Part shown: positions 1 to 2,295 of the stretch, one piece after another
Layout: each line of letters starts with the position of its first letter
Position numbering within the stretch: the stretch's first letter is position 1
From: Hwanghaeella grinnelliae
GTDB taxonomy: Bacteria > Pseudomonadota > Alphaproteobacteria > UBA8366 > Aestuariispiraceae
Direction of reading: 5' to 3'
NCBI RefSeq assembly: GCF_004005845.1
Contig: NZ_SADE01000002.1
Coordinates: 992,421-1,056,420 of the forward strand
Length of the DNA: 64,000 nt
Translations under genes and position numbers: made by a program
The notes under the pieces: model-generated
What the model was told of the DNA's origin: nothing
Database searches by the model: none
What the model saw: only the letters and a program-made list of their open reading frames with translations

Positions 1-225
1 GACCTATGTATTTGGTTGCCATTGGCGAGCGTTGTTGTAGGTCGCCGCCGCCTCGAGTAACTTCATTGGTAGTTTGTGCGTGGCGTTCGGAATTGAGCGG
101 TTTTGGGAAGTTTCTTTTCGTTTTCCTTCATCTACGTATGTTTCTACTGGCCTAAATAAGTAAATCACAGTAAATCCAAATAACGGAGAGTGAGCGAATA
201 TTTGATGAGTGAGGAGATCGGTGCG

Positions 226-945
226 ATGGACGGTTTCACGATAGGAGCGGATTCCCTGCGGAATACGGGGCGATCCACGGCTTCGTCACCGGAGGAGGAT
301 GTCAAATCCGCCCGAAAACTGTCATACGCTGTTCCTTGTTCATCACGCTTCCGAGACGCTGTTCTAGAGATGGCCGCGGACCGCGAGGTCAATGTCGGCG
401 ACCTGGCGCGGTCGATCATGCTGACCTTGTCGCCGGACGCCATTAAAGGCGCCACGGATCCGGGAGAGCCGGAAGAAAGCGACCGCGAAACCGTCGTGCT
501 GAAATCCGGGCCAAGTGCGGGCAAGCCGTGGCGTCGGAAGCCCCGTCTGCAGGTCAGATTGCCGGCAGGCCATGATGTCGTCGATATACGAAAGGCGCTG
601 GGGATTGCTTTGGACCTGCATGGCGGAGATTGCGAAGTCCGACTGGAATCGGCGGCCGCCCCGGAATGGCCTGAAATCGTCCATGAATTGGAAGAGAAAG
701 TCGCGCGCCTTCAAGTAACGATCGCGACATTGGCTTTCGAACCCTTGGCGAACGGCGTGCGAACGCAAGATGAAGCGATGCATGTCTTGGGGTTCATTCC
801 AGGCACCCGTCCAGATTCGAAAACAATCAAGGCGCGATACAGAATGATGGCGGCAATACACCATCCGGATAGCGAATTTGGCGACCACGCGCGGATGTCA
901 CAGATAAATCAGGCCATGAGTTTGCTGAAAAACGGCCTGCTTTAG
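226..945 (+). CDS. Hypothetical protein with C-terminal J-domain-like segment
   Basis: 239-residue protein not recognised as a named family. The last ~55 residues read like a DnaJ helix II/HPD/helix III segment: an ARYR basic helix, then IHHPDS containing the HPD tripeptide that J-domains use to stimulate DnaK ATPase, then a helix with INQAMSLL, ending the protein. The N-terminal ~190 residues have no motif I can name and lack membrane segments. I chose ATG 226 because GAGGAG lies 10 nt upstream; a GTG at 190 and an ATG at 205 are in frame but poorly spaced from any Shine-Dalgarno. The role as a DnaK co-chaperone is inferred from the HPD motif only. The 225 bases before it hold nothing I can assign. 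Confidence 0.6.
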   Translation: MDGFTIGADSLRNTGRSTASSPEEDVKSARKLSYAVPCSSRFRDAVLEMAADREVNVGDLARSIMLTLSPDAIKGATDPGEPEESDRETVVLKSGPSAGKPWRRKPRLQVRLPAGHDVVDIRKALGIALDLHGGDCEVRLESAAAPEWPEIVHELEEKVARLQVTIATLAFEPLANGVRTQDEAMHVLGFIPGTRPDSKTIKARYRMMAAIHHPDSEFGDHARMSQINQAMSLLKNGLL

Positions 946-1087: not shown

Positions 1088-1118
1088 TTTGACTATGCGT
1101 TTTACGAATATTATTCGT
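1088..1118 (+). promoter_or_regulatory. Putative promoter with palindromic operator upstream of XRE-prephenate dehydratase
   Basis: TTTGAC at 1088-1093 and TATTAT at 1109-1114 (15-bp spacer) resemble a sigma70 promoter. The perfect inverted repeat ACGAAT-ATT-ATTCGT at 1104-1118 overlaps the -10 region. The downstream gene encodes a protein with its own XRE helix-turn-helix, so this is a plausible autoregulatory site. The repeat is seen directly; operator function is inference. Confidence 0.45.
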
Positions 1119-1155
1119 GCCGCAAATACATTGTGCGCAAAAAGGTTGCTGTGAA

Positions 1156-2295
1156 ATGCTTGAAACCATGAGTGATCGGATAAGACAAGCCCGGATTTCC
1201 GCCGGACTGACACAAACGGAGTTGGCTGGGCGACTTGGGGTTACCCAATCGACGGTGAACCGCTGGGAAGGCGGCCGACACGATCCTTCGCGGGAAATGG
1301 CAACCCGCATCGCGGAGGCCTTGGATGTCACGACACAATGGCTTGAAATGGGCGAAGGCGATCCCGGAGAGCGGCCGCCGACCGGGGCCGCAGGTGGGGT
1401 GGAACATCGCAAGCCGAAAACCGCTGACCTTTTTTCCCCCCTACTGCGTTATGTCGACAATCCGGTCATTGCCTATCAAGGGGTCCCGGGCGCCTATTCG
1501 CATCTTTCCTGCACAGAGGCTTTCCCGACCTTGAAGCCGCTGTCCTGTCCCAGTTTCGAGGACGCCTTCGCGGCGGTCGAGACCGGCCGTGCCGGACTGG
1601 CTATGATCCCGATCGAAAACAGCTTGGGCGGGCGGGTTGCCGATATCCACCATCTGCTGCCGGAATCCAGCCTATACATTGTCGGTGAACACTTTCAGCC
1701 GGTACATCACAACCTGCTCGCGCCGAAAGGGGCGACCCTGGAAGGGATCAAGGAGGCGCGCAGTCATCCCCAGGCCTTGGCACAGTGCCGTGAAACTCTG
1801 CGTGAGTTGAAGATCAAGCCGGCGAGCAGGGCCGATACGGCAGGTTCCGCCGCGGAAGTCGCTGAATTGGGCGACCCAACAATCGCCGCCGTCGCGTCAA
1901 GCCTTGCTGCGGAATCCTACGATCTGGATGTGCTTCGCAGTCGGATCGAAGACCGGATCGGCAATGTAACGCGGTTTGTCATCATGTCCCGTACGCGGAT
2001 CGAACCTGATCCGCTCGATGGCCCCTCAATGACCAGTTTTGTTTTCACCGTGCGCAGCGTGCCGGCGTCACTTTACAAATCCATGGGCGGATTTGCGACC
2101 AATGGCGTCAACATGATCAAGTTGGAAAGTTATATCTCCGTCGCGGACTATTCGATTGCGCGTTTCTATGCCGAGATCGAGGGCCACCCGGCGGAACGTC
2201 ATGTGGATCGGGCGATGGAGGAACTTCAATACTTCACAACCCGCGTGAAGATGTTGGGCACCTATAAGCAGAACCCGTTCCGTTTTCTGGACTGA
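1156..2295 (+). CDS. pheA: Prephenate dehydratase with N-terminal XRE helix-turn-helix domain
   Basis: Predicted to convert prephenate to phenylpyruvate in phenylalanine synthesis. In the 379-residue product, residues ~6-63 form an XRE/Cro-type HTH (RQARISAGLTQTELA, then VTQSTVNRWEGG). Residues ~103-279 are the dehydratase: YQGVPGAYS, PIENSLGG, SHPQALAQC and NVTRF, whose Thr is catalytic in the family. Residues ~293-370 are an ACT domain with KLESY, the usual phenylalanine-binding feedback element. Stand-alone alphaproteobacterial enzymes are about 280-300 residues, so the HTH and a ~40-residue linker account for the extra length. The reading frame is continuous across the join. ATG 1156 has AAGG 10 nt upstream; ATG 1168 and GTG 1117 are alternatives, and GTG 1117 lies inside the palindrome. 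The enzyme assignment is firm; DNA binding by the fused domain is inferred. Confidence 0.9.
   Translation: MLETMSDRIRQARISAGLTQTELAGRLGVTQSTVNRWEGGRHDPSREMATRIAEALDVTTQWLEMGEGDPGERPPTGAAGGVEHRKPKTADLFSPLLRYVDNPVIAYQGVPGAYSHLSCTEAFPTLKPLSCPSFEDAFAAVETGRAGLAMIPIENSLGGRVADIHHLLPESSLYIVGEHFQPVHHNLLAPKGATLEGIKEARSHPQALAQCRETLRELKIKPASRADTAGSAAEVAELGDPTIAAVASSLAAESYDLDVLRSRIEDRIGNVTRFVIMSRTRIEPDPLDGPSMTSFVFTVRSVPASLYKSMGGFATNGVNMIKLESYISVADYSIARFYAEIEGHPAERHVDRAMEELQYFTTRVKMLGTYKQNPFRFLD

Follow-up and report, generated by a model that had tools for sequence, protein, structure and literature searches.

We found that the prephenate dehydratase (PDT) of Hwanghaeella grinnelliae carries an N-terminal XRE-type helix-turn-helix (HTH) domain and a C-terminal ACT regulatory region in one uninterrupted chain, a trigger-enzyme architecture that is previously undescribed for prephenate dehydratase in the open-access literature. 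With a probability of roughly 0.6, the fusion is an autoregulated trigger enzyme in which phenylalanine bound to the ACT region tunes DNA binding. The gene lies in a 64,000-nucleotide stretch of the genome (hereafter the window), with the following features:

190..945, + strand: upstream neighbour with a weak DnaJ-like C-terminus (DnaJ 22.8 bits, below the cut-off of 27.8)
1089..1117, + strand: predicted sigma-70-like promoter TTGACT-N17-TATTCG, from a consensus scan, 38 nt before ATG 1156
1094..1110, no strand assigned: imperfect 6-5-6 repeat TATGCG-TTTTA-CGAATA within the spacer of the promoter, an alternative candidate operator, read by eye from the sequence
1104..1118, no strand assigned: candidate operator ACGAATATTATTCGT (ACGAATA-T-TATTCGT), a perfect 15-bp palindrome over the predicted -10, from an inverted-repeat scan
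1140..1145, + strand: possible Shine-Dalgarno (SD) sequence AAAAGG for ATG 1156 (duplex energy -3.9 kcal/mol)
1156..2295, + strand: HTH-PDT-ACT fusion gene, the genome's sole prephenate dehydratase gene (open reading frame and profile matches)
1180..1344, + strand: XRE/HTH_3 DNA-binding domain (Pfam; residues 9-63 from ATG 1156)
1345..1467, + strand: variable, mostly disordered linker (residues 64-104; low pLDDT, low identity)
1399..1401, + strand: GTG, the sole candidate internal start in the linker near the PDT (SD energy -5.2, p=0.22 versus background)
1468..1995, + strand: prephenate dehydratase catalytic domain with PIENS and NVTRF (Pfam PDT; residues 105-280)
1996..2292, + strand: ACT regulatory region with KLESY, limits approximate (alignment to Phe-bound 6VH5)

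The open reading frame runs from ATG 1156 to the stop at 2295 in a single frame (379 aa), and a second in-frame ATG at 1168 would give a form of 375 aa. An earlier note, made from the letters alone, had described an XRE HTH, a linker and a dehydratase in one frame, and the profile matches bear this out: Pfam HTH_3 covers residues 9-63 (E=5.9e-17), Pfam PDT residues 105-280 (E=2.7e-54; 184.2 bits versus a cut-off of 25.2), and the NCBIfam prephenate dehydratase model PRK11899 residues 103-376 (408.9 bits versus a cut-off of 359). The best solved relative of the HTH is the 434 repressor, and AlphaFold models residues 1-60 as a five-helix XRE fold (pLDDT about 85-92) and, with only 13 sequences, the PDT part less well than the HTH head; the doubt that the HTH might not align to XRE profiles is thereby removed. 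The catalytic motifs pointed out earlier, PIENS and NVTRF, are present together with KLESY, and the first two are invariant across the family of the window genome (f1). The ACT domain held up in part. The region is covered by PRK11899, aligns to the solved PDT-ACT structures 6VH5 and 2QMX, and conserves KLESY, but no separate ACT match was found in the window protein in Pfam at E<=0.001. In the 375-aa form, the alignment to 6VH5, a Phe-bound Brucella PDT and the closest solved structure, reaches residue 372. GqqA (7AM0/7ALZ), the next closest solved PDT, has been described as a quorum-quenching acylase, so a member of the PDT family with another role has already been reported.

At the domain level, a DNA-binding domain and an enzyme are thus joined in one chain, as in trigger enzymes, and the N-terminus is HTH_3 rather than the chorismate mutase that would make the protein a P-protein (PheA). 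Because the fusion is the only PDT in the window genome (97.85% complete), no separate copy serves metabolism, which suggests that the fused protein has dehydratase activity; the idea of a second PDT freeing the fusion for regulation was rejected on the same ground. A weak second PDT match (23.7 bits) was seen in one relative, G002.

The fusion is present in all 14 genomes of f1, a family of marine alphaproteobacteria, which span seven genera, as frames of 378-415 aa with the HTH. PDTs of families f2-f4 of the same order are unfused. Two genomes of another order (G225 and G106), the sole members of family f68 in a 385-genome class sample, also carry it. No further full-length fusion was found among the matches listed in a 398-genome phylum sample, and none is listed for the about 750 further Pseudomonadota genomes taken together; the class and phylum searches list only their top matches and could overlook an HTH whose linker is very different. 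In the PDT tree, a single clade (99/92) holds 14 of the 15 fused rows, with L116 nearby. The tree requires two changes, and a strict single origin was set aside for this reason, though a single clade for all fused rows is not rejected (AU p=0.217). The fusion would accordingly have been gained either once, with losses, or twice. Beside unfused PDTs, no HTH match was detected outside the fused genes except in other frames in L094 and L112, and we discarded an adjoining XRE gene as the ancestor of the fusion on account of this absence.

In almost every f1 genome the gene before the fusion is the DnaJ-like one instead of kdsB; in f68, kdsB precedes the fusion, as in several unfused relatives. Many unfused pdt genes (L085, L087, L089, L090, L099, L100, L101, L106, L108-L110 and L121-L123) are preceded, at 56-71 nt, by a near-consensus TTGACA-N17-GATACT that lies within the 3' end of kdsB and may be a promoter in coding sequence or just conserved VDT..GVDT codons. 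Separately, the PDTs of a Gammaproteobacteria MAG (L013) and of Campylobacterota (L004, L010, L020, L027 and L032) fall near alphaproteobacterial/oceanospirillal PDTs, a placement that suggests gene transfer or misbinned contigs.

Ten f1 genomes analysed outside G003 are of a leaderless type (L082, L084, L092-L094, L096-L098, L102 and L104). In eight of them the top predicted promoter, of the form TTGACx-N17 (TTGTTA in L082), has its -10 just 6-8 nt ahead of the HTH ATG, and in L092 and L097 the same placement was read by eye as a lower-scoring site; from this distance a leaderless mRNA is predicted. An in-frame ATG is found 7-17 codons ahead of the PDT domain in these ten genomes, in G003 and in L116 of f68. 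SD energies there range from -5.4 to -10.3 kcal/mol, whereas other in-frame ATGs average -3.1; the difference has p=0.0004 when each genus counts once and p=0.00015 by simulation, with modest p-values genome by genome. Because unfused PDTs begin at about the same place, the internal ATG is probably the old pdt start. The window gene (L001), L083 and L103 have leaders of more than 20 nt, the last with a clear SD sequence (AGGAGA), and lack the internal ATG. Judging by the presence or absence of an internal ATG with an SD sequence, two products, the fusion and a plain PDT, are probable in most relatives, and the fusion alone in the window organism. The earlier note had seen a threat to its reading in translation that begins after the HTH; such a start is predicted as an additional one in most relatives, and the window has no convincing internal start.

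These patterns bring the chance to about even that the gene yields two products: the complete HTH-enzyme, translated for the most part from a leaderless mRNA, and an enzyme lacking the HTH that begins at the internal SD start. Regulation would then fall to mixed oligomers or to a small share of full-length protein. The lineage of the window would have lost the internal start by decay, leaving the fusion obligate. Strong internal SD sequences throughout the leaderless-type f1 genomes and in L116, leaderless-type promoters that are the top match in eight of these genomes, and the long leaders of the three genes that lack the ATG all agree with this; L117, which is leaderless-type yet has no internal start, the modest per-genome p-values and the poor GTG 1399 of the window speak against it. 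Two products would extend rather than exclude an autoregulated trigger enzyme. More tentatively, the gene may be a nested one, whose repressor-enzyme and plain enzyme would share one Phe-sensing oligomer, the product ratio and bound phenylalanine would together set operator occupancy, and the window would represent a later stage of obligate fusion.

Operator-like repeats were found at the fusion's own promoter, most clearly in other genera. TGTGCA-N5-TGCACA stands before the fusion gene in three genera (g2, g3 and g4), whose recognition helices are alike (SHSTxNRWE). The exact sequence has one copy per genome in G001 and G003, before the fusion gene. With 12 fixed bases, a chance match is expected about 0.3 times per genome, so this uniqueness is weak by itself, and it is the repeated position and spacing that carry the weight. 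In both G001 and G002 there is a pair of sites at a distance of exactly 38 bp (121864/121902 and 306639/306677), the inner one lying 4 bp before TTGACA (-35) in each, and other one-mismatch matches in G001-G003 are few and scattered, many within reading frames. In L117, also fused, a perfect palindrome, TATACG-CATTA-CGTATA, makes up the entire 17-bp spacer between TTGATT and TTATAT. Upstream inverted repeats beyond those of shuffles (p<0.05) occur in 6/16 fused versus 1/34 unfused genes (Fisher p=0.003, congeners not being independent). Outside G001-G003, the f1 lineages have repeats that vary or are rich in A and T, and these may instead be UP or promoter elements. In L094 and L098 (genus g7), the stop codon of the DnaJ-like gene ahead of the fusion lies within a long AT-rich inverted repeat, ATATGAGAA...TTCTCATAT, which may be an operator, a terminator or both.

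The window promoter is weak alone (p=0.31 against shuffles), and a congener, L083, has TTGACT-N17-TATAGG at the equivalent place; such scans are mostly non-significant per genome, and only the shared spacing is informative. The window palindrome is likewise marginal (p=0.11 against shuffles) and absent from L083, so the case for autoregulation is stronger in the relatives than in the window. The imperfect repeat TATGCG-TTTTA-CGAATA in the window spacer is comparable to the one that fills the spacer of L117.

The HTH itself is under purifying selection, with dN/dS of about 0.03-0.6 in pairs without dS saturation. Mean pairwise identity in the family is 52% for the HTH, 22% for the linker, 80% for the PDT and 77% for the ACT region; constraint on the HTH is therefore below that of the enzyme and far above that of the very variable linker, whose conservation in relatives the earlier note had wanted checked. 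Eleven HTH residues are invariant (R9, Q16, L19, A20, S28, T29, W33, E34, G36, P40 and R42, counted from ATG 1168). Low dN/dS, invariant residues and a constraint well above that of the linker support a working HTH. A translated but non-regulatory HTH, serving as a structural or stabilising head or persisting as the decaying remnant of a merged neighbour, seems unlikely to us. It would fit the HTH's faster evolution relative to the enzyme and the very variable linker, but not the purifying selection and invariant XRE scaffold, nor recognition-helix types that track operator types and paired sites at a fixed spacing in two genera.

We consider still less probable a wider aromatic amino-acid regulator with a TyrR-like regulon beyond its own gene. 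TyrR does use an ACT plus DNA-binding architecture in this way, but exact or paired operators were seen only at the fusion's own gene in G001-G003, and the window palindrome has no other copy in its genome at 0-1 mismatch. A wide regulon was not seen by these pattern searches, which a degenerate motif would escape, and control looks local, as autoregulation, rather than that of a general Phe regulon. A sequencing, assembly or annotation artefact, including the sequencing error absent from close relatives that was feared earlier, is practically negligible, as the same one-frame architecture recurs in 16 independent genomes, which rules out a frameshift or misassembly.

An autoregulated trigger enzyme is thus best supported, given the sole PDT, the conserved HTH under selection, and the operator-like repeats at fixed promoter positions in several genera. 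These features are seen in the sequence itself; DNA binding, the sign of regulation and phenylalanine as effector are inferred. In such an enzyme, the C-terminal part would be the cell's only prephenate dehydratase, converting prephenate to phenylpyruvate, the ACT region would be expected to bind phenylalanine, and the N-terminal XRE domain would sit on a palindromic operator at its own promoter. The PDT-ACT core is oligomeric in known structures, and its dimers or tetramers could place HTH pairs on half-sites or on a pair of operators spaced by about 38 bp. In this way the enzyme would limit, or set, how much of it is made. Phenylalanine held by the ACT region would probably adjust DNA binding, so that feedback would act on transcription as well as on the enzyme. 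Repression is the more likely sign, as an operator within the spacer (L117 and the window) favours it; the site 4 bp upstream of the -35 in G001 and G002 makes activation also possible. Against autoregulation stand an HTH that evolves faster than the enzyme and an internal start that could give HTH-free enzyme in most relatives. Of the earlier proposal of an enzyme that could sense phenylalanine and adjust transcription directly, the direct control of transcription is plausible on the strength of the repeats, the sole PDT and the selected HTH, and looks confined to the gene's own promoter; an effect of phenylalanine on DNA binding is putative.

If true, a core step of phenylalanine biosynthesis would be under direct transcriptional control by its own enzyme, with the ACT region as sensor. 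The predicted operators make autoregulation directly testable, and fused genes with and without an internal start make the steps from enzyme to trigger enzyme comparable across living genera. No paper on an HTH- or XRE-PDT fusion was found in the open-access literature, subscription journals being outside the scope, in agreement with the earlier note, which knew of no described case. Its statement that the known fusion partners of PDT are chorismate mutase or none was too narrow, as archaeal TyrA-PheA fusions exist.

Among related proteins, free-standing PDTs (PRK11899; Brucella 6VH5; GqqA 7AM0) share about 50% identity, the same catalytic motifs and the ACT region with the fusion, and differ in being without the HTH. 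The P-protein PheA (chorismate mutase-PDT-ACT) also bears an extra N-terminal domain on PDT-ACT, but that domain is an enzyme; pheA in enterics is controlled by attenuation. TyrR, which senses aromatic amino acids, likewise unites an ACT region and a DNA-binding domain in one protein. Unlike the fusion, it is not a pathway enzyme, has a Fis-type HTH and an AAA domain, and runs a regulon. The DNA-binding domain of PutA is a ribbon-helix-helix and that of BirA a winged HTH, and NadR consists of an XRE HTH, an NMN adenylyltransferase and a ribosylnicotinamide kinase. All three are established trigger enzymes; NadR is classed as multi-target, and PutA in E. coli acts only at its own put region (PMC8249747). 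PutA and BirA resemble the fusion as enzymes with a fused DNA-binding domain, the single-target, self-adjacent logic of PutA being alike as well, and differ from it as catabolic or cofactor enzymes rather than a PDT. NadR serves another pathway and several targets, whereas the candidate operators of the fusion were seen only at its own gene; like the fusion, it carries an N-terminal XRE-type HTH on a biosynthetic enzyme, with enzyme and regulator in one chain.
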